From Acidobacteriaceae bacterium (GTDB lineage: Bacteria > Acidobacteriota > Terriglobia > Terriglobales > Acidobacteriaceae): a stretch of 64,000 nucleotides of DNA. Location of the stretch: positions 1 through 64,000 of the forward strand of contig JASHOC010000165.1 in the NCBI GenBank assembly GCA_030041305.1, given 5' to 3'. How positions within the stretch are numbered: position 1 is the stretch's first letter; every line of letters begins with the position of its first letter. Positions 6,213 through 63,831 of the stretch are shown piece after piece. Below the pieces are notes generated by a model, which was not told where the DNA came from, did no database searches, and saw only the letters and a list, made by a program, of their open reading frames with translations. Made by a program: the position numbers and the translations under genes.

Positions 6213-6274
6213 ACCGGGCCCGGGAAAGTCGCCGCGGGCGAAGGCTGCCGAGGGCGTTCAGATCGGGCTCGGTT

Positions 6275-6391
6275 TACGGCGGTTCTCCAATTCCCGTGGA
6301 GTTTTGAGGGGCGTGCCAGGTGGCGTTTTCTTGGGAAAAACGCCACTCAACGTTCGAGGTTCTGCTCTACACCAATTGGAGAACCGCTATA
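6275..6391. repeat. 117-bp hairpin element, subfamily A, copy 1 (yqeY stop codon)
   Basis: Outer arms GCGGTTCTCCAATT and AATTGGAGAACCGC pair perfectly. An inner hairpin GTGGCGTTTTC/GAAAAACGCCAC sits in the middle, and TA lies at both ends (6275-6276 and 6390-6391). Near-identical copies occur at 8975, 22687, 23795 and 63479. It overlaps the 3' end of yqeY on the minus strand and supplies that protein's last ~13 residues. Removing it with one TA gives GGC TAA, a normal stop. Confidence 0.93.
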
Positions 6392-6871
6392 GCCCGCCAG
6401 CGCCTTCTTCACTATCTCGCTGACCGTCTTGCCTTCGGCGCGGGCGCCGGCGGCTTGCAGCTTGGCCTGGACCGCCTTCATGGCTGCTCCCATGTCTTTG
6501 GGGCCGGGTTTGTGGCCGGTGGCCGCGGTCAGTTCGGCGATGGCTTCGTTGACCAGCGCCGCGAGGCCGGCTTCATCGAGCTGCTTGGGCAGAAACTCCT
6601 CGATCACCACGATTTCGGCAGCTTCTTTGGCGGCCAGCTCCGGCCGGTTGCCCCGGGTAAACTGCTCAATCGAGTCGCGACGCTGCTTGATCATGGAAGC
6701 CAGGGTCTGCTCGCTGTCGGCCTGCGACAGCGGGCCGCGCTTCTCAATGGCTTTGTTTTTGAGCGCGGTCTTGATGAGGCGCAGCGTGCCGGTGCGCTCC
6801 GGGTCGCGGGCTTTCATGGAGGTGACAATCTGCTGGCTGATGAGAGTTTCGAGCGCGCCTGCTTCGGTCAT
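6347..6871 (-). CDS. yqeY: GatB/YqeY domain protein with element-derived tail
   Basis: A small all-helical YqeY protein related to the tail domain of GatB, the amidotransferase subunit that converts Glu-tRNAGln; the role of stand-alone YqeY is not firmly known. Family features are the N-terminal SMKARDPERTGTLRLIKTALKNKAIEKR, the EAAEIVVIEEFLPKQL segment and GPKDMGAAMKAVQAKL near the C-terminus. The length is 174 aa, but the last ~13 residues (SGSPIGVEQNLER) are encoded by the hairpin element at 6275-6391. The ancestral protein probably ended at KKALAG, about 160 aa. A degenerate element of the same family lies about 28 bases upstream of the start, so both gene ends are bounded by such elements. 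Confidence 0.9.
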   Translation of the reverse strand: MTEAGALETLISQQIVTSMKARDPERTGTLRLIKTALKNKAIEKRGPLSQADSEQTLASMIKQRRDSIEQFTRGNRPELAAKEAAEIVVIEEFLPKQLDEAGLAALVNEAIAELTAATGHKPGPKDMGAAMKAVQAKLQAAGARAEGKTVSEIVKKALAGYSGSPIGVEQNLER

Positions 6872-8013: not shown

Positions 8014-8150
8014 GCCGGCCGGCGGCGGGTGAGTCTTCCCGAGCCTTGTAGGAGCTTCGCCGCGGCTTTGCGAAGATGGGAACGGGATTTCGCGATTGGG
8101 AGCCGTGGGCGCAGGACCGGCGGTCTTTTATTCTGGGGCTGGTTTGAAGC

Positions 8151-8266
8151 TCCGGCATTTTCAGAGATACTGTGGCCTTTCCAGCAGCGCACAAGGCCGT
8201 CACTCCTTGGGATCGGGCCGACTCAGCATCCCGGCTTCGGACTACACCTTCTCTGAAAATGTTTTA
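8151..8266. repeat. 116-bp hairpin element, subfamily C (upstream of engB)
   Basis: Arms CATTTTCAGAGA and TCTCTGAAAATG pair perfectly. The interior keeps the family plan (TTTCCAGCAGCGCACAAGG, then CTCCTTGGGATC, then CGGCTTCGGACTACACC). The right end is TA (8265-8266) and the left end is TC. It ends 11 bases before the engB ATG and therefore occupies the place where a ribosome-binding site would be expected. Confidence 0.85.
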
Positions 8267-8277
8267 GCCAATGCTCT

Positions 8278-8880: not shown

Positions 8881-8974
8881 AAGGCGCGGCCGGCGGGTAA
8901 AAGCGGTTTCACCCCCCTTGCGGAAAAACCAATACGCCGCAAGAATGGGCCGCCATCGCTTGTTGACTCAGTTT

Positions 8975-9091
8975 TACGGCGGTTCTCCAATTCCCGTGAA
9001 GTTTTGAGGGGCGTGCCGGGTGGCGTTTTCTTGGGAAAAACGCCACTCAACGTTCGAGGTTCTGTTCTACACCAATTGGAGAACCGCTATA
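8975..9091. repeat. 117-bp hairpin element, subfamily A, copy 2
   Basis: Same orientation and nearly the same sequence as the copy at 6275, with a few substitutions (CCCGTGAAG, TTCTGTTCTAC). TA is present at both ends. It lies between engB and the 735-aa gene, 95 bases after the engB stop. Confidence 0.93.
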
Positions 9092-9309
9092 AGCTCATCG
9101 AGACAGGGCGGCAGCGGCCATTTTTGACCGCGATGAAACGCTCGGTTGATTGTCTTCACTATTCCCCTGTACGCCAGAACAAGACTGGTTTGATCCAGAC
9201 CAGAAAGCTTGGCGATGGATGGTTCGAAGACGCGGTTGGCGTTACCTTGGGCCGCACGCGGAGGAATGCGTCTTGTTGCGCGGGCCGTCACGGAATGTGA
9301 GGAAATTGT

Positions 9310-11517
9310 ATGAGCTCTTCCCCGGGAACACCCGTTCCCCCTTCTCCACAACCGGCGCTGGAGCTGATCTCTCTGGCCAAGATGTCACCCGAACAGGCGC
9401 GGCAGAATTTGCGCGCGCTTTTGCTCGCCAACCCCAACTATTTTGGCAACATTACCGGAAGCTCGTTTAAGGCCGTCCTGAACATCGAGGGAAACACCGA
9501 TTACGAGAGTATTGGATGCGTGGGTTATAACCCGCAGCTGCAACAGCTCCGGGCCACGATCGACATCAAGCAGACCAGCGGCTATTCCGGAGGTGTATGC
9601 ACCAGCGGCTCGGAAGAGTACGTGCGGTTTTATTTGTCGTATGACGGCGGCTCGACCTGGCAGGATCAGGGATTGCGCGCGGTGAACGTGTTCGACGTCC
9701 CCGGGCCCAAGCCGCTGGATTTCGCGGTGAATTTGCCTATCAGCCCGACCGAAGAGTTTTGTTTCACGCAGAACCTGCCTACAGTGCGCGCGATTCTGTC
9801 ATGGAATACGCCGCCTCCGCCGACTACGCCGGCCTGGACGCCGGTGTGGGGCAATGTGGTCGATGCGCGCATTCAGATTGAGGGCTTCGAAATCATCATT
9901 TTGGAAACGCTGCTGGCCGACGCCAAAGTGCAGTTACCCGAGGAAATTGCACAGGCGATCAATTTGAATCAGCCGATACACGCGGCGGCTCCGCAGCCGA
10001 TGAACGCGACAGATTTGCATCAGTTGTACAGCAGCACGAAGGTAGCGCCGCAGCGGTATCTGTCGGGCTTGCTGGCCGCTTCTACCGGGGCCTCGGTCTT
10101 TGCGAACCAGCTGGCGGCCCGGCCGGCCGCGACTTCCGCGCTTGCCGCGACGGCCAAGGCTGCGCCCGCGGCCTCCTTCGGCGGGATTACGGACATCGAC
10201 CTGAATGCCGTGGTGGAAGCCTGGCTGAACACCAACGGCGACACCTCCTATGAGCAGATGGAGTGCGTGGGCCTGGACCCAAACGCCAGCCAGTTAGCCG
10301 GCGTGCTCGAAATCAAACAGGGCAGCGGCTATGGCGGAGGGCCGTGCACGGCTGGAAGCACAGAGTTTGTGGCGTTCTGGGTAGATTGGGGATCGGGCTG
10401 GGAATATGCGGGCACAACGTCAGTAGGCGTACATGACTTCAGCTCGATCCCGGCCGGCGGATTGCAGTACAACGTTTTTCTGCCGGTGAATCTTCTCGCG
10501 CATCAACAGCCGTGCGCAAAAGGCCCGCAAACGGCCAAAGTGCGCGCGGTGCTCTCATGGAACACGCCGCCGTCGACCACCAATCCCAACGCCCCGGTGG
10601 TTTGGGGCAACAGCGTGGATGGACTGATCCTGATCCCGCCCGGCCAGGCCATTGGCGAGGGCCAGCAGGTTCCGTTCCTGAGCGCAGTGGGTGACGTGGA
10701 CACGACGCTGATTGGCGGGGACGGCCTGATCACGAGCGCGACGACGATCACCACCGGAGCATATTACGCGGATGCTCCCTTCGGTGGAAGGATTACGCTG
10801 GCGGGGCAGATCTCGAACCCGGCGCCGGGCATGCTGTATCGCATCATGAAGGCGCCGCACGGGTCATCGGCTTTTGCGCCCGTGGTGAATGAGCCTGCCG
10901 GACTCACGCTGACCCTGAACGTGTTCAGCGGCGGGGTGTGGACGGAGAGCGAGCAGACGTTCCACGCCAATGCGGAGGGCTATTACCCGTACCAGGACTA
11001 CTCGCCGGACCACACCGTGGTGGGACATTTGCTGGGGGTGTGGTACTCCACGGTGGCCGACACCGGCTACGCCTACGACGTGCGCGTGGATTTGTACAAT
11101 GCGCCGAATCCCGATATCGAGAGCAACGTGGTGACGGTGCTGGTGAACAACGCGACGCCGGTGGCCACGCTGACGCCGACCTTTGGCGAATGCGGAAAGG
11201 TGGCGCCGGGCGACACGATCACGGGGACGTTTACGGCGACGGCCACGGATTTTGGCTCCTTCGGGTTTACCATCCTGCCTCCAGGACCCGCGAACGGCGT
11301 ACTGCCGTCGCCGGCTTCCGGAGTCTCGAACGAACTCGGAGGGACGATTTCCGATCCGGGCGTGACCAGCGAAGCATTCACGCTCAACACCACGGGCATG
11401 GATCCTTGCGGCTACTCCCTGACTGTCGGGGTGTGGGACCGCACTAACGTCAACAGCGGCGAAACCAGCAATTACAACCAGGCGTCGGCCGGCTTCTGCC
11501 TGCAAACGGGAAGTTAG
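9310..11517 (+). CDS. 735-aa protein with a duplicated GYSGG-type domain, unknown function
   Basis: I do not recognise a named function. The N-terminal ~40 residues form a predicted helical segment with LARMSPEQ-like character (SLAKMSPEQARQNLRALLLANPNYFGN). Two homologous domains of ~150 aa follow, roughly residues 50-205 and 295-445. Both contain YE-cysteine-VG, IKQ-SGY-GG-C, EYVRF/EFVAF, a GW/STW-type segment, CFTQ/CAKG, and KVRAVLSWNTPP followed by VWGN. The remaining ~280 residues are beta-rich and Gly/Thr-rich with Ig-like features. There is no signal peptide. The start at 9310 has GAGGA six bases upstream. The stop codon is formed by the boundary of a hairpin element. It heads the cluster that contains the CHAT protease. 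Confidence 0.72.
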   Translation: MSSSPGTPVPPSPQPALELISLAKMSPEQARQNLRALLLANPNYFGNITGSSFKAVLNIEGNTDYESIGCVGYNPQLQQLRATIDIKQTSGYSGGVCTSGSEEYVRFYLSYDGGSTWQDQGLRAVNVFDVPGPKPLDFAVNLPISPTEEFCFTQNLPTVRAILSWNTPPPPTTPAWTPVWGNVVDARIQIEGFEIIILETLLADAKVQLPEEIAQAINLNQPIHAAAPQPMNATDLHQLYSSTKVAPQRYLSGLLAASTGASVFANQLAARPAATSALAATAKAAPAASFGGITDIDLNAVVEAWLNTNGDTSYEQMECVGLDPNASQLAGVLEIKQGSGYGGGPCTAGSTEFVAFWVDWGSGWEYAGTTSVGVHDFSSIPAGGLQYNVFLPVNLLAHQQPCAKGPQTAKVRAVLSWNTPPSTTNPNAPVVWGNSVDGLILIPPGQAIGEGQQVPFLSAVGDVDTTLIGGDGLITSATTITTGAYYADAPFGGRITLAGQISNPAPGMLYRIMKAPHGSSAFAPVVNEPAGLTLTLNVFSGGVWTESEQTFHANAEGYYPYQDYSPDHTVVGHLLGVWYSTVADTGYAYDVRVDLYNAPNPDIESNVVTVLVNNATPVATLTPTFGECGKVAPGDTITGTFTATATDFGSFGFTILPPGPANGVLPSPASGVSNELGGTISDPGVTSEAFTLNTTGMDPCGYSLTVGVWDRTNVNSGETSNYNQASAGFCLQTGS

Positions 11518-11630
11518 AGCAGTTCCAGAGTTCATGTGCATTTTCCGAGATCGTGCAAGGTGGCTTTTTCTTAAGAAAAAGCCACTTGGCCTCCACGGCT
11601 CCGAGACGTAGCAACTCTGGAACTGCTGTA
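11515..11630. repeat. 116-bp hairpin element, subfamily B (stop codon of the 735-aa gene)
   Basis: Arms AGCAGTTCCAGAGTT and AACTCTGGAACTGCT pair perfectly. The inner hairpin is GGTGGCTTTTTC/GAAAAAGCCAC, and TA is present at both ends (11515-11516, 11629-11630). The left TA forms the TAG stop of the upstream gene; removing the element with one TA leaves AGT TAA CCG, also a stop. Confidence 0.9.
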
Positions 11631-17658: not shown

Positions 17659-18999
17659 CTAATGCGCAAAGAACTCGCCGTGTCCGCCGTTGGCCCAGGG
17701 GTCGTAATGGGCGGCGAAGTTGGCGCGGGTCTGCGTGCTGGGGTGGTCGTACAGCCAGAACTCGATGAAAGGATTGGGGCGCGGGTCTTCGAGCCAGGCT
17801 TCGCCGAGATGGTTGAAGGCGGCGACTGCGGTTTTTTGCGGGTCGGGCACGATGCCGTGAATCGCCTCCTGGCCGTAGATGTCGGCCTGGTGCTCGAAAT
17901 GGCGGCTGAAGGCGTTCGAGGCGGGCTGTAACAGGAAGGCGGCGATGGAGATGACGAAGAGAAGCACCACAAAGCCGGCGCGGGAGGAAAGCTCTTCGAT
18001 ATGCCAGCGGGCGCCGAAGCGGCGAACCAGCCAGGAAGCGCAGGCGGCGCAGCCCCAATAGACAAAAAAGAGGGCGACGGCGTAGCCGGCGAGCATTTTG
18101 GGAATGTGATGGAGGACGTAATGGCCGCTTTCGTGGCCAAAGACGAAGAGGACTTCATCGTCGGGAATGCGGCCGGCGGTGGTGTCCCAGACCACGATGC
18201 GCTTGGTGGCCCCGATGCCGGAGACGTAGGCGTTGAGGCCGTTCGTCTTAAGGCTGGCTTTCATCAGATACATGCGGTTGGGCGGGATGTTGGTTCCGGT
18301 GCGGGCGACGACTTGTTCGAGCTCCTGGACGAGCTGGGGATAGTGTTGGTTGAGGGGCTCGAACTTGTTAAAGATGGGCTCAAGGAGCGGTTCGACAAAG
18401 AGCGTGAGGACCAGAATGGGCAGGGTGGCGATCCACACGCCGAACCAGTAGCGGCGCGGCCAGCGACGCACGATCCAGTTGAAGAGCAGAAGAACCAGCG
18501 TGCCGATGACGAGGGTGAGGCCGAGAGCCTTGGCTTGGTCGCCGAACCAACCGCCCCAACCCTGCACGCTGATGCCGTAACCGCGGCTGACGTGCTGGCC
18601 GTACCAGTCGAAGGGAAGGCTGGCAAGGGTGGTGAGGAGGAAGAAGGCGAAGAAGAAGACGACGCCCTGCACCCAACGGCGCGCGGTGATGCGCTTGGCC
18701 CAGGCTTCGATCCCGGACCAGGCATGGGTGGCGAGCAGAATCCAGAGAAAGACAATGCCCCAGATGGCGCCGGCGATTTCCAGAATGTCGCGAATGCGGC
18801 TGAGGGCGACGGCTTTGGCGAGCTTATCGGGGGAAAGCGTGTAGGCCTGCTGGGTGTTGGCGTTGGCGGGCGGCGCGGCGGCCGTTGACGCCGGAGTGGA
18901 CGGGCTCGCGGGCGCCTGAGCAGATAGGGGCAACGGGGCAAGGCCGGCGAGCAGGAAGGCGCAACAACCCGCGAGCAGCAACGAACGTGCAAATTTCAT
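17659..18999 (-). CDS. M48 family (Ste24-like) integral membrane zinc protease
   Basis: A 446-aa CAAX-prenyl-protease-type enzyme. It has an N-terminal signal/anchor (FARSLLLAGCCAFLLAGLAP), then several membrane helices of the M48 N-terminal domain (for example GVVFFFAFFLLTTLASLPF). The metallopeptidase motif HESGH is near residue 287, and a third zinc ligand candidate is at EHQADIYG. The cytoplasmic or lumenal active site would cleave membrane or misfolded proteins; no prenylated substrates are expected in bacteria. The start at 18999 has GAGGAG seven bases upstream and is preferred to the track start 36 bases earlier. It is transcribed divergently from the TldD-like pair. Confidence 0.93.
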   Translation of the reverse strand: MKFARSLLLAGCCAFLLAGLAPLPLSAQAPASPSTPASTAAAPPANANTQQAYTLSPDKLAKAVALSRIRDILEIAGAIWGIVFLWILLATHAWSGIEAWAKRITARRWVQGVVFFFAFFLLTTLASLPFDWYGQHVSRGYGISVQGWGGWFGDQAKALGLTLVIGTLVLLLFNWIVRRWPRRYWFGVWIATLPILVLTLFVEPLLEPIFNKFEPLNQHYPQLVQELEQVVARTGTNIPPNRMYLMKASLKTNGLNAYVSGIGATKRIVVWDTTAGRIPDDEVLFVFGHESGHYVLHHIPKMLAGYAVALFFVYWGCAACASWLVRRFGARWHIEELSSRAGFVVLLFVISIAAFLLQPASNAFSRHFEHQADIYGQEAIHGIVPDPQKTAVAAFNHLGEAWLEDPRPNPFIEFWLYDHPSTQTRANFAAHYDPWANGGHGEFFAH

Positions 19000-19116
19000 A
19001 GGAAGTCTCCTCTTGTGAGCCAATCTCTGCGACAATCGAGCATACCGATGCTTTTTCCCAAAATTCCAGGATCGATTCCCAAGAATTGTAGTGCGTTCGG
19101 GCAGCGAGGCGCCGCA

Positions 19117-20970
19117 GTGCGCTGGTGTGCGGCCTTCCGGCGAAACCAGAGATTTTGTACCCCGTTAGGACCAGCGAAGGGTCGCCGCTCCTTGAGGTCG
19201 CGTCGACTTGAATGTGCGGCTTCGAGACACACTTTCTCTGGTTTCGCTATAGCAGCCCTCACGGCGGTGTGGGTGTTTCCTGCAGCCGGCGTGACGCAGC
19301 AGCCCGATCCGCTCCTCGATGCAATGACGGCGGAGCTCCACCGGGCGTTTACTTCGCTCGGCAAAAAAGGCGATGGGCAGGGCGACGACAAGCAATTGCC
19401 GCCGTATTTCCTCAGCTACTCCGTGAGCGACGCGAGTTTCGTTTCGATTCGCGCGGAGTATGGCGCGCTGATGGGGAGCAGCGCCAATCACGAGCGCATG
19501 GCCGACGTGCAGGTGCGCGTGGGCAGTCCCAAGCTCGACAACACGCACGGCGACCACCGCAGCTCGGCGGTGAACAGCATGCAGTTGCCGCTGAATGACG
19601 ATCGCGAGGCGCTGGCGCGCTCGCTGTGGCTGGGGACGAATTCCGGCTACGGAAACGCCATTGACAATTACCTGCGCGTGAAGACGGAGGCGCAGGTGCG
19701 CGCCAAGGAGGAGGACACTTCGCCCGACTTCAGCGAGGAGGCGCCGCAGGTGCATATCGGCAAAGCGGCCCCGCCGGTGGAAGTCGACCGGGCGGCCTGG
19801 GAGCAGCGGGTGCGGGCGCTTTCGCGCGTTTTCCGCGATTACCCCGATGTGTACCAGAACATGGTGGCGCTGACGGCGCAGAACGAAACGGATTATTACG
19901 CTTCGTCGGAGGGTTCAAAGGTGGTAACGCCGCACCTCGAGGCGCGGCTGGTGGTGATGGCCGCGACACGCGCCGACGATGGCATGGATTTGTATCGCGA
20001 CCAGACTTTCGAGGCCGAGACGGCGGATGGGCTGCCAAGCCAGAAGGAGCTGGAGTCGGCGGTGGGCAAATTGGGCGAGAGCCTGGAAGCGCTGCGCCAG
20101 GCGCCGGTGACGGAGCCGTTCGACGGCCCGGCGATCTTGTCAGGCCGCGCGGCGGCGGTGTTCTTTCATGAAGTGCTGGGCCACCGGCTGGAGGGCCAGC
20201 GCCAGCGCGGCGAGGAAGAGGGCCAGACGTTTACGAAGGACGTGGGCACGGCGGTGTTGCCCAGCTTCCTTTCCGTGGCCGACGATCCCACCGAGACCAA
20301 ATTCGGCGGCACGTGGCTGAGCGGGAGCTATGAATACGACGATGAGGGAGAAAAGGCGCAGCGGGTCAATCTCATCGACGATGGAGTGCTGAAGACGTTT
20401 CTCATGTCGCGGCTGCCCATCGCCAACTTCAGCTCCTCAAACGGGCACGGGCGCGCGGAGACAGGACATATTCCCACAGGACGGCAGGGAAACTTGATTG
20501 TAACCTCAGCGAAGACGGTTCCCGAGGCCGAGTTGCGCAAGGAGCTGATCGCCGAAGCGAAACGGCAGGGCAAACCATACGGGCTGTATTTCGAGGACAT
20601 CTCTTCGGGCTTCGCGCTCACCACGCGCAGTTCGCCGCAGGCGTTTTCTGTGGTTCCGCTGGTGGTGTGGCGGGTGTATGTGGATGGCCGGCCGGACGAA
20701 CTGGTGCGCGGCGTGAGCATTGTGGGCACGCCGCTGGCAGCGATGAAAAGCATTCTGGCGACCAGCGACCGCAGCGAGGTGTTCAACGGCATTTGCGGAG
20801 CGGAATCGGGGTCGATCCCGGTGAGCGCGGTGGCGCCGGCCATGCTGCTGAGCGAACTGGAGACGCAGAAGGAGGAGCAAGGCACGGCGCGGCCACCGAT
20901 CTTGCCGATTCCGGGGGCGGACGAAAAGCAGGAATCAACGACTGGCAGCGGAACCGGAGGCGCGCGATGA
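19117..20970 (+). CDS. Secreted TldD-like zinc metalloprotease, signal peptide interrupted in frame by a hairpin element
   Basis: PmbA/TldD family peptidase. The C-terminal half shows AAAVFFHEVLGHRLEGQR with the HExxxH motif and the later FSSSNGHGRAETGH and AFSVVPLVVWRVYVDGRP segments. I place the start at the GTG at 19117, seven bases after GAGG. It begins VRWCAAF, then 38 codons derived from the element at 19136-19251, then AALTAVWVFPAAGVTQQ. Without the element the N-terminus would read as a good signal peptide (MRWCAALAALTAVWVFPAAG). The frame stays open through the element, giving 617 aa, but export of the present form is doubtful. The stop overlaps the next start as ATGA, so the two genes are translationally coupled. 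Confidence 0.88.
   Translation: MRWCAAFRRNQRFCTPLGPAKGRRSLRSRRLECAASRHTFSGFAIAALTAVWVFPAAGVTQQPDPLLDAMTAELHRAFTSLGKKGDGQGDDKQLPPYFLSYSVSDASFVSIRAEYGALMGSSANHERMADVQVRVGSPKLDNTHGDHRSSAVNSMQLPLNDDREALARSLWLGTNSGYGNAIDNYLRVKTEAQVRAKEEDTSPDFSEEAPQVHIGKAAPPVEVDRAAWEQRVRALSRVFRDYPDVYQNMVALTAQNETDYYASSEGSKVVTPHLEARLVVMAATRADDGMDLYRDQTFEAETADGLPSQKELESAVGKLGESLEALRQAPVTEPFDGPAILSGRAAAVFFHEVLGHRLEGQRQRGEEEGQTFTKDVGTAVLPSFLSVADDPTETKFGGTWLSGSYEYDDEGEKAQRVNLIDDGVLKTFLMSRLPIANFSSSNGHGRAETGHIPTGRQGNLIVTSAKTVPEAELRKELIAEAKRQGKPYGLYFEDISSGFALTTRSSPQAFSVVPLVVWRVYVDGRPDELVRGVSIVGTPLAAMKSILATSDRSEVFNGICGAESGSIPVSAVAPAMLLSELETQKEEQGTARPPILPIPGADEKQESTTGSGTGGAR
19136..19251. repeat. 116-bp hairpin element, subfamily D (inside a coding region)
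   Basis: Arms GCGAAACCAGAGA and TCTCTGGTTTCGC pair perfectly. The interior aligns with subfamily C (GGACCAGCGAAGGGTCGCC, CTCCTTGAGGTCGC, CGGCTTCGAGACACAC). The right end is TA and the left end TC, exactly as in copy C. The net insertion of 114 bases is 38 codons without an in-frame stop. Confidence 0.87.
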
Positions 20971-22643
20971 GGCGGAACGGCTCAATTTTGTGGGTGGTGG
21001 GGTTGGGATTGCTAAGCTTGAGCCTCAGCGCGCCGCGCTTGGCCGCCGCCCAGCAGACGCGCGCCGAAGCGGAGAAAGACCCCGTGCTCAAAGCCATGCT
21101 CGAGGAGATGGATCGAAGCATGAGCCAGTTGCAGTTGAAGGGCTTCGAGAAGCCGTTCTTCATCCAATACCGCATTGAGGACGTGGACGACTACTCGACG
21201 CGCGCGGAATTCGGAGCGAGCGAAGGCTCAGACCGCGTGCGCCAGCGCGTGGCGCGGGTCACGGTGCGCGTGGGCGATTACAAGACCGACAGCTCCGGTG
21301 GACGCGGCGATGGGTCGCTGGTGATTGCGGCGCTGGACGACGATCCGATTGCGATTCGCTCGGCGTTGTGGGACGCAACGGATCGGGCGTACAAGAGCGC
21401 GCTGGTGGCGTACGCGCAAAAGCAGGCCGCGCTCAAAGAGGTGCAAACGCCGCCGCAGGCCGACGACTTCAGCCATGAGAAGGCGATCGTTTCGCTGGCC
21501 TCGCCGGCAAGCTTAGAGCTGGATGAGGCGGCGTGGGCCAGTCGCGTGGCGCAGGCGAGCGGGATTTACCGGGCGGATGCGAAGGCGAAAGCGGCCGATG
21601 GGGATGTCGAATACTCGACCGCGGATTTTCATGCGCGGGCCACGACGAGCTGGCTGGTGACGAGCGAGGGAACCATTGTGCGCAAGGCGGAGACGGAATA
21701 CCAGGAGAGCCTTGCCGTGGGCGCCCAGGCCGCAGACGGGATGCGGCTGGACCGCTCCTATGCATCGACGGCGAACTCGCTTGAAGGTTTGGATGCGCCC
21801 CAAAAGATGGCGCAGCACGCGGTGGCGCTGATTGCGTCGCTTGAAGATTTGCGCAAGGCGCCGCTGGTCGACGAGGAATATCACGGACCGATCCTGTTGA
21901 GCTCGGACGCGGCGACTGAAGTGGTGCGTTCGCTGCTGGCGGGTGGGGTCGGGGCCACGCGCCCACCGCTCGGCGCCGAGGCGCGGACCAATGGGCCCTT
22001 TGCTTCGAGCTATCAGACGCGGGTGTTGCCTGAGTTCATGGAAGTGGTCGACGATCCGGGATTGAAGAGCTACGACGGCGTGGGCCTGGTGGGCGCGTAC
22101 GACGTGGACGATGAAGGCGTGCCGGCGCAGGCCGTGAAGCTGGTGACGGATGGGCGGCTCGAGAACTATCTTGTATCGCGCGAACCGGTAAAAGATTTTC
22201 CGCAGTCGAACGGGCATGGGCGCTCCGGAATCGCCGGCGCCGCGCGGCCCTCGATGGGCGTTCTGAAGGTCTTGGCGGTGAACGGGCTTTCGGACGAGGA
22301 ATTGAACCGCAAGCTGCTCGCGCTGGGCAAAGACAACGGCCTCCAAAGCGTCTACTACGTGGAAACCATGGGCGGCGCACGCGCGCCGCGACTGCTCTAT
22401 CGCGTAGGCCTGGACGGCAAACGCGAACTGGTGCGCGGAGCGGTGCTCGACGATGTCGACCAGCGAACGATGCGCACGGGCGTAACGGCCGCGGGAAGAG
22501 ATCTGCTGGTGACCAATTATTTCGGCGACGTGCCCACCACGGTGCTCGCTCCGGCGCTGCTGCTCGACGACGTCACGGTGCGGCGGGCGAACGAGAAGAA
22601 TGAGAAGCTGCCGTTTTATCCGCCGCCTGCCAGCGGTCAGTGA
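20967..22643 (+). CDS. Secreted TldE/PmbA-like partner lacking the HExxxH motif
   Basis: 558 aa with a clear signal peptide (SILWVVGLGLLSLSLSAPRLAAA). It is homologous to the upstream protein along its length: FIQYRIEDVDDYSTRAEFGA, VTVRVGDYK, YHGPILLSSDAA, FPQSNGHGRSG and APALLLDDVTVRR all have counterparts. At the place of HEVLGH it has VVRSLLAGG, so the zinc-binding histidines are missing. In the known TldD/TldE pair one subunit carries the metal site and the other does not, and this tandem pair repeats that arrangement in an exported version. The ATG overlaps the preceding TGA. Confidence 0.9.
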   Translation: MRRNGSILWVVGLGLLSLSLSAPRLAAAQQTRAEAEKDPVLKAMLEEMDRSMSQLQLKGFEKPFFIQYRIEDVDDYSTRAEFGASEGSDRVRQRVARVTVRVGDYKTDSSGGRGDGSLVIAALDDDPIAIRSALWDATDRAYKSALVAYAQKQAALKEVQTPPQADDFSHEKAIVSLASPASLELDEAAWASRVAQASGIYRADAKAKAADGDVEYSTADFHARATTSWLVTSEGTIVRKAETEYQESLAVGAQAADGMRLDRSYASTANSLEGLDAPQKMAQHAVALIASLEDLRKAPLVDEEYHGPILLSSDAATEVVRSLLAGGVGATRPPLGAEARTNGPFASSYQTRVLPEFMEVVDDPGLKSYDGVGLVGAYDVDDEGVPAQAVKLVTDGRLENYLVSREPVKDFPQSNGHGRSGIAGAARPSMGVLKVLAVNGLSDEELNRKLLALGKDNGLQSVYYVETMGGARAPRLLYRVGLDGKRELVRGAVLDDVDQRTMRTGVTAAGRDLLVTNYFGDVPTTVLAPALLLDDVTVRRANEKNEKLPFYPPPASGQ

Positions 22644-22686
22644 TCAGAGTTCAGGGGTCAGGGAACAGCGGTCAGGGATCAGAGAC

Positions 22687-22803
22687 TATAGCGGTTCTCC
22701 AATTGGTGTAGAGCAGAACCTCGAACGATGAGTGGCGGTTTTCCCAGGAAAACGCCACCTGGCACGCCCCTCAAAACTTCACGGGAATTGGAGAACCGCC
22801 GTA
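22687..22803. repeat. 117-bp hairpin element, subfamily A, copy 3 (inverted orientation)
   Basis: Reverse orientation relative to the copy at 6275, with TA at both ends. The flanks on both sides (GGTCAGGGATCAGAGAC and GGGGCCAGAGAACAGTGGTC) belong to one CAG/GTCAG-rich tract, so the element has visibly split that tract. Confidence 0.93.
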
Positions 22804-23356: not shown

Positions 23357-23794
23357 TGTTCTCCTTCGCTGGCTGGCCCCTTTGCTGGCCCGTTGCGGAC
23401 TTCTTGCTGGCCGCTTGCTGTTTTTGCAGCGATCTCCCGTTCTCCCCAATTCTGCCACGCAACCCCGCGTCGTGCTGCCGGCAACCTTCGGTTTATGCCT
23501 CCCGGTCCCCTCCAACGCCCACTGCCGGCAGGCGCGGGCGTGATCAGCGTCATCCCCGCCGGAGCCGTGTCCGAGATATTCAGGAGGGGGACAGTCTCCG
23601 CACAGCCGGTGATGCGCCAAGACCCCACGGGCGCTGCATCGGCGGGTTGCGCCCCGTAGGACGGAGGAGGGTCTTCAAAGGTGTGAAGCCCGTTTCCCGA
23701 GGACCTATCCAGCGTCTCCCGCGCAAGCCATTCTCGATGAGTGCTTTGCCCTGCTCTCTTCAATTGAAATTCAACCGGGTGAATCTCGATCGAC
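23357..23794. other. Non-coding stretch between element-flanked genes
   Basis: 438 bases. Overlapping ORFs exist in several frames (for example 23245-23763 minus) but none shows a recognisable domain or a ribosome-binding site with matching codon use. I see no tRNA, riboswitch or clear terminator here. Confidence 0.4.
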
Positions 23795-23911
23795 TAAAGC
23801 GGTTCTCCAATTGGTGTAGAGCAGAACCTCGAACGTTGAGTGGCGTTTTTCCCAAGAAAACGCCACCTGGCACGCCCCTCAAAACTCCACGGGAATTGGA
23901 GAACCGCCGTA
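23795..23911. repeat. 117-bp hairpin element, subfamily A, copy 4 (inverted orientation)
   Basis: Same orientation as the copy at 22687. The left end is TAAAGCGG and the right end CCGCCGTA, so the outer TA is intact on both sides. It lies in the gap before the propeller-like gene, about 110 bases from that gene's stop. Confidence 0.93.
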
Positions 23912-63357: not shown

Positions 63358-63478
63358 GCCGGGATGTCGACTTGTTGCGGGCCGGCTGAGTCCGCCTGAG
63401 GGCGCGATGCGTCCCCGTGCAGGATGTCAGGCTGGCGCCTGGTCTGCGCGCTTCCGGCTCCAAAGTAGCTAAAATAGC

Positions 63479-63595
63479 TACGGCGGTTCTCCAATTCCCG
63501 TGGAGTTTTGAGGGGCGTGCCAGGTGGCGTTTTTTTGGGAAAAACGCCACTCAACGTTCGAGGTTCTGCTCTACACCAATTGGAGAACCGCTTTA
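63479..63595. repeat. 117-bp hairpin element, subfamily A, copy 5
   Basis: Orientation as at 6275. TA at both ends (63479-63480, 63594-63595). Preceded by AAAGTAGCTAAAATAGCTA, itself a short direct repeat. Located 120 bases after bamA. Confidence 0.93.
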
Positions 63596-63831
63596 ATCCC
63601 CGTCCCGCCCCCACCCCTGCATTTTTGTCTGCGCGCAAGTGCCTCATTTTCAGCAACTTGCCCGTAAATATATGAAAATACGCCATTTGATTGCAAGCAT
63701 AAGAAAACAAAGAAATAAACTCGATTTTTTCGAGGATTTGCACCGGAAAATGTGCTGTTTTTCGGATCTGAAAGTGCTGTGATTTTCGATGGATTGGCTC
63801 TCCTTGAGCACTTCTGCTTCGGTGCGTCGCT

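Follow-up and report, generated by a model that had tools for sequence, protein, structure and literature searches.

In-frame insertion of a short palindromic element into the signal-peptide region of a TldD-like gene of an Acidobacteriaceae bacterium, with further such insertions in the same genus

Rickettsia palindromic elements (RPE) are short palindromic repeats of 105-146 bp that occur in spacers and, in frame, in conserved protein genes, where they are tolerated; an active guanylate kinase carries one such insert (PMC2229807, PMC10969869). The ERIC/RU-1 and YAPL/RU-2 MITEs described by Delihas provide reading frames that are fused to genes. In the Yersinia fusion YPO1552 the element forms part of the signal peptide, and the ERIC and YAPL/RU-2 fusions have been proposed to create new exported proteins (PMC2229807). 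Duplication of a TA dinucleotide on insertion is the mark of IS630/Tc1-mariner transposition, for example that of ISY100 (PMC2170065), and a preference of IS630 for CTAG is announced by the title of Tenzen and Ohtsubo (1991), as cited in PMC2170065.

The locus described here lies in a stretch of 64,000 nucleotides (the window) on contig C277 of a draft Acidobacteriaceae genome of 6.4 Mb in 361 contigs. A TldD-like gene in this window carries, close to its 5' end, a 112-bp element referred to as element D. The features of the locus are as follows:

17659-18999, - strand: M48 peptidase gene, divergent (Pfam PF01435, PF16491)
19117-20970, + strand: TldD-like gene (PmbA/TldD C-terminal domain, Pfam PF19289, E=1.1e-28; HEVLGH motif read in the ORF), counted from GTG 19117; carries the insertion
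19136-19137, + strand: TC, probably the left target TA in altered form, as judged by comparison with TA-flanked copies
19138-19249, + strand: element D, 112 bp, putative IS630-type MITE; frame 0 without stops (RRNQRFC...FSGFA)
19138-19152, + strand: left terminal inverted repeat, CGGCGAAACCAGAGA
19235-19249, - strand: right terminal inverted repeat, TAGCGAAACCAGAGA
19250-19251, + strand: probable right copy of the duplicated target TA, giving ATA (Ile)
19252-19287, + strand: preserved part of the signal peptide, comprising hydrophobic core and cleavage region (AALTAVWVFPAAG); 104 of 108 orthologue records have a hydrophobic core at this position, and the sister species reads AALLAAWVFPAAG
20967-22643, + strand: adjacent paralogue, a second TldD/PmbA-like protein with its own signal peptide (Pfam PF19289)

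The product of the TldD-like gene matches the NCBIfam TldD model weakly, far under the cut-off, and keeps the TldD-type HEVLGH motif. Translation from GTG 19117, which lies seven bases after a GAGG at 19106-19109 just as an earlier sequence-only reading had placed it, gives MRWCAAF-RRNQRFCTPLGPAKGRRSLRSRRLECAASRHTFSGFA-IAALTAVWVFPAAGVTQQ, where RRNQRFCTPLGPAKGRRSLRSRRLECAASRHTFSGFA is the inserted segment. Between the divergent M48 and TldD-like genes, the block TGCGACAATCGAGCATACCGATG (about 19020-19060) is conserved genus-wide and is possibly a shared promoter.

The same reading had proposed that a mobile element sits in frame inside the signal-peptide region, with a net insertion of 114 bases, or 38 codons, and no in-frame stop, and comparison with relatives bears this out. 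The closest relative available, sister species G029 (JASHUH010000641.1; 93-94% protein identity), aligns with the window on both sides of element D and has almost nothing in between, which is an empty site. G029 reads ATG CGC CGG TGT GCG GCG TCT GCG GCG CTG CTG GCG GCC TGG GTG TTT at this point. From GCGGCC, ending at 19134, to GCAGCC, starting at 19252, the window has 117 nt against 3 (TCT) in G029, a net gain of 114 nt, or exactly 38 codons, with no stop in frame. The orthologue alignment that had been suggested as a means of refutation favors insertion as well: the 38-residue segment appears in a single one of the 108 records that include the N-terminus (some contigs being counted twice), the window's own, and is absent from the other approximately 107. 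Element D is thereby confirmed as an in-frame insertion in the signal-peptide region of the TldD-like gene.

Element D has the marks of a MITE, namely exact 13-nt terminal inverted repeats (GCGAAACCAGAGA at 19140-19152 on the + strand and 19235-19247 on the - strand), a length of 112 bp and no transposase gene. It folds as a long hairpin (-49.3 kcal/mol, z = -3.7 versus shuffled sequences), and its family is found in 56 of the 80 genomes of the genus. Because the family recurs both in this genome and across the genus, and because the hairpin beats the shuffles, the element at 19138-19249 is not a chance sequence. This particular copy is unique in its own genome, where the next best match is 85% over 62 nt. 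Two other identities were considered and rejected: a known RNA family, since Rfam gave no match at the gathering threshold, and a conserved coding unit, since frame 0 is open in just 27 of the 68 full-length copies, no more often than the other frames. Certain D copies (L002, L006, L009, L014 and L269) contain at least one nested hairpin module (CCACCCCAACGACGAA...TCGTTGGGGACCCCGG) at the same internal position, at times in tandem, and at L218:1312-1348 an NfeD-like gene owes its C-terminal codons to the left half of a D element, present there on its own.

The mode of transposition can be read from the flanks of related elements. Approximately 35 copies of the related family E were compared, and in nearly all the left flank is YTA and the right flank TAR; many D copies are flanked likewise, and TA...TA flanks are present in most copies of both families. 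An empty site is also available for a family F element of 112 bp at 11517-11628, which ends in GAGCAGTTCCAGAG. The sister reads AGC TAA CCGG where the window reads AGT TA[G...]TAA CCGG (AGCTAACC against AGTTA...TAACC), so TA was duplicated when that element inserted. The family F element sits in the stop codon of a 735-aa gene (window 9310-11517), which ends AGC TAA in the sister and AGT TAG in the window, the new stop consisting of TA and the first G of the element. At element D itself the left TA is TC, as in two other copies, and a TA duplication there is likely from comparison with the TA-flanked copies. A third element type, at 8150-8267 (CCGGCATTTTCAGAGA...TCTCTGAAAATGTTTTA), has a sister empty site and, like the element at 19138, a left flank of TC and not TA. 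Near-identical family E copies (TACGGCGGTTCTCCAATT...) lie at 6273-6392, 8973-9096, 22684-22803, 23792-23911 and 63477-63598 of the window; the genome holds at least 40 copies with a net length of 115 bp, and their spread is apparently recent.

IS630 transposase genes are present in the genome, one of them with loosely similar ends that start GAGCRGTTT after TA, and a check of D-family copies for a matching transposase between the ends found none. On contig C34, two D ends separated by 1.8 kb were considered as the borders of an autonomous element, an idea that was rejected because the genes in between look ordinary (NfeD-like, SPFH-type membrane protein and SPOR-like, named by reading). A looser terminal-repeat pattern ('Dl') returned mostly false hits. 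Element D is best interpreted as a non-autonomous MITE, probably mobilized by an enzyme of the IS630/Tc1-mariner type.

Further cases were sought by scanning D-family copies for open frames that pass through the element. Besides the TldD-like gene, no fewer than four genes in the genus carry in-frame insertions of the family, mostly in export signals. In the same genome, the signal peptide of an fn3-domain lipoprotein reads MRSVNKGRQAGRWL[RRNQKYC...TLSGFA]IALAAALTGGIGLAGC, relatives without the insertion reading ...RWLALTATLAGGMALAGC or ...RWLAFAAALAGG, and the empty site in genome G107 is CTAG. A ModA-like binding protein of G107 has an in-frame insertion in its signal peptide, the segment being absent in the 21 other orthologues listed. 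A PSD-domain protein (PSD3/4/5; DUF1587/1592/1595; DUF1592-type) carries a diverged signal-peptide insertion in two genomes, G000 and G029, whereas G107 lacks it (MRFWGKLIAGIAATAAM); the event is most simply older than the G000/G029 split, the frame having stayed open since. These two species are about 0.5 synonymous substitutions per site apart, and in this gene dN/dS is 0.56 over the 38 inserted codons versus 0.12 in the mature part. An ImuA/RecA-like protein in G084 is longer by exactly 38 residues, which lie in a loop of variable make-up among relatives. An Hsp15-like S4 protein and an RluB-like protein of G107 are probable in-frame cases in the opposite orientation, judged from the protein reading and not from an empty site. 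An AraC-like regulator gene (L319, G042) is apparently broken by a frameshift through a D copy, a call made by reading; a Pfam search of it gave no match. Copies before GHMP kinase (L137), HemG (L135), SAICAR synthase (L237), TypA (L217) and EamA (L195) were set aside because in each case the real start seems to come after the element, their open frames being fortuitous. That the TldD-like insertion is one of a series in the genus had escaped the sequence-only reading.

The target of D-type elements is YTAR. A TA on codon positions 1-2 gives a TAR stop, which leaves coding sequence with TA either at positions 2-3 (NTA, for Leu, Ile or Val) or divided between two codons. In the NTA frame the + strand of D reads NTA CGG CGA AAC ... 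(frame 0, open), and the - strand in the same frame normally meets TAG at once. The rule proposed for + strand insertions is that the target TA occupies codon positions 2-3, with the neighboring frame reading a stop. The five + strand cases are consistent with this rule, with TTA, CTA or ATA or codons one change away. The net length of 114 keeps the frame, whereas family E was rejected as an in-frame inserter because its 115 bp shift it. Four of the six or seven in-frame cases are signal peptides, a share that would be far from chance if signal peptides make up at most 3% of codons (a binomial estimate, with a crude count of 0.35% and a sample collected with bias). The hydrophobic nature of NTA codons, together with tolerance of longer n-regions, would account for this share. 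A general statement can be offered tentatively: D-type MITEs may repeatedly land in and lengthen the signal peptides of conserved exported proteins by a codon rule (YTAR target, + strand TA at positions 2-3, and a 114-bp net insertion whose 3' end encodes the hydrophobic SGFAI), and so be a natural source of new n-regions.

The explanation preferred for the TldD-like gene, held with good confidence, is that a 112-bp, TA-duplicating MITE inserted where the n-region of an exported protein meets its hydrophobic core, into a Leu codon whose ancestral form was presumably TTA, part of a YTAR target. The element and the TA duplication together make 114 bp, a multiple of three, and with + strand frame 0 free of stops the gene has stayed open and gained 38 residues. 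The signal peptide most likely still functions, its own core and cleavage site now following a lengthened, Arg-rich n-region. Numerous copies have gone elsewhere, and the intragenic ones seen would be mostly those that are frame-compatible and tolerated, which amounts to a survival filter. Signal peptides would be favored because the usable + frame places TA on NTA codons and because N-terminal lengthening is tolerated.

The effect on export is where this explanation meets its main rival, in which the gene is a young pseudogene that has yet to acquire a stop: the inserted codons would leave the protein inactive or misrouted, with export or translation blocked by the long basic n-region or by the hairpin in the RNA. 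The n-region has grown from 6 to 44 residues with 11 Arg/Lys, which is unusual and could slow export; translation might be lowered by the strong hairpin, which begins some 22 nt downstream of GTG 19117; and the AraC-like gene is seemingly frameshifted by the same family. Against this, neither the hydrophobic core IAALTAVWVF nor the cleavage region FPAAG-VTQQ is disrupted, with a core hydrophobicity of 2.33 with the element, 2.26 without it and 2.01 in the sister. Judged by sequence and hydrophobicity, the protein has the basic n-region, hydrophobic core and small residues before cleavage of a Sec signal peptide. Since core and cleavage region are unchanged behind the longer basic n-region, export is probably kept. 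The gene also runs for 1.85 kb without a stop or frameshift, and its dN/dS of 0.13 versus G029 indicates purifying selection overall, most of which may predate the insertion. The insertion in the PSD-domain protein has remained open in two species despite their synonymous divergence. The sequence-only reading had offered either an altered N-terminus or inactivated export; the second is weakened by these observations and by the retained HEVLGH motif. A disabled protein is accordingly rated as unlikely.

The start codon admits a different rival. Translation could begin inside the element at an in-frame TTG in CTCCTTGAGG, giving MRSRRLECAASRHTFSGFAIAALTAVWVFPAAG, so that the element would supply both a new start and a new n-region and the upstream GTG and ATG would go unused. 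GAAGGG lies about 10 nt upstream of this TTG, the resulting peptide would start with a normal n-region (19 residues, 4 of them Arg), and the PSD-domain insertion likewise has an internal TTG. This start is nevertheless quite unlikely, as the ATG of G029 aligns with GTG 19117 and the TTG sits in a part of the element that is conserved in many non-coding copies. The ATG of the sister supports GTG 19117 as the probable start; an in-frame ATG at 19048 is a further possible one, many orthologues having candidate starts further upstream. That the junction is a metagenome-assembly artefact, with a repeat copy joined into the gene, would suit the 361-contig draft source, but it is highly improbable given that the copy is unique in the genome, that the element lies within an 87.8-kb contig, and that the junction is clean versus the sister with the frame preserved at both sides.

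Compared with the known systems, element D works like an RPE, inserting in frame in conserved genes at several loci, and is not classed as one. The host is an Acidobacteriaceae bacterium and not Rickettsia, the distinction being drawn by lineage. RPE insertions lie mostly in mature cytoplasmic enzymes, whereas signal peptides predominate in the present series, in which TA duplication and empty sites are visible. In contrast to ERIC and YAPL, the element extends signal peptides that conserved proteins already possessed. TA duplication is common to the present elements and to IS630/Tc1-mariner insertion sequences and MITEs such as ISY100, and the CTAG preference of IS630 agrees with the YTAR targets; element D differs in having no transposase inside, and no insertion sequence with the same ends was identified. 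A limited literature search found no report of in-frame palindromic insertions in Acidobacteriota. Such insertions have so far been discussed mainly for Rickettsia, and here they occur in a free-living soil lineage, where clean empty sites in close relatives make it possible to trace through evolution how well proteins tolerate a defined insertion of 38 residues. The apparent signal-peptide bias provides a simple, testable rule that ties target-site sequence, reading frame and protein region together. In-frame MITE insertions were already known and the TldD-like case is not a new principle; what looks new is the repeated targeting of established signal peptides with empty-site proof.
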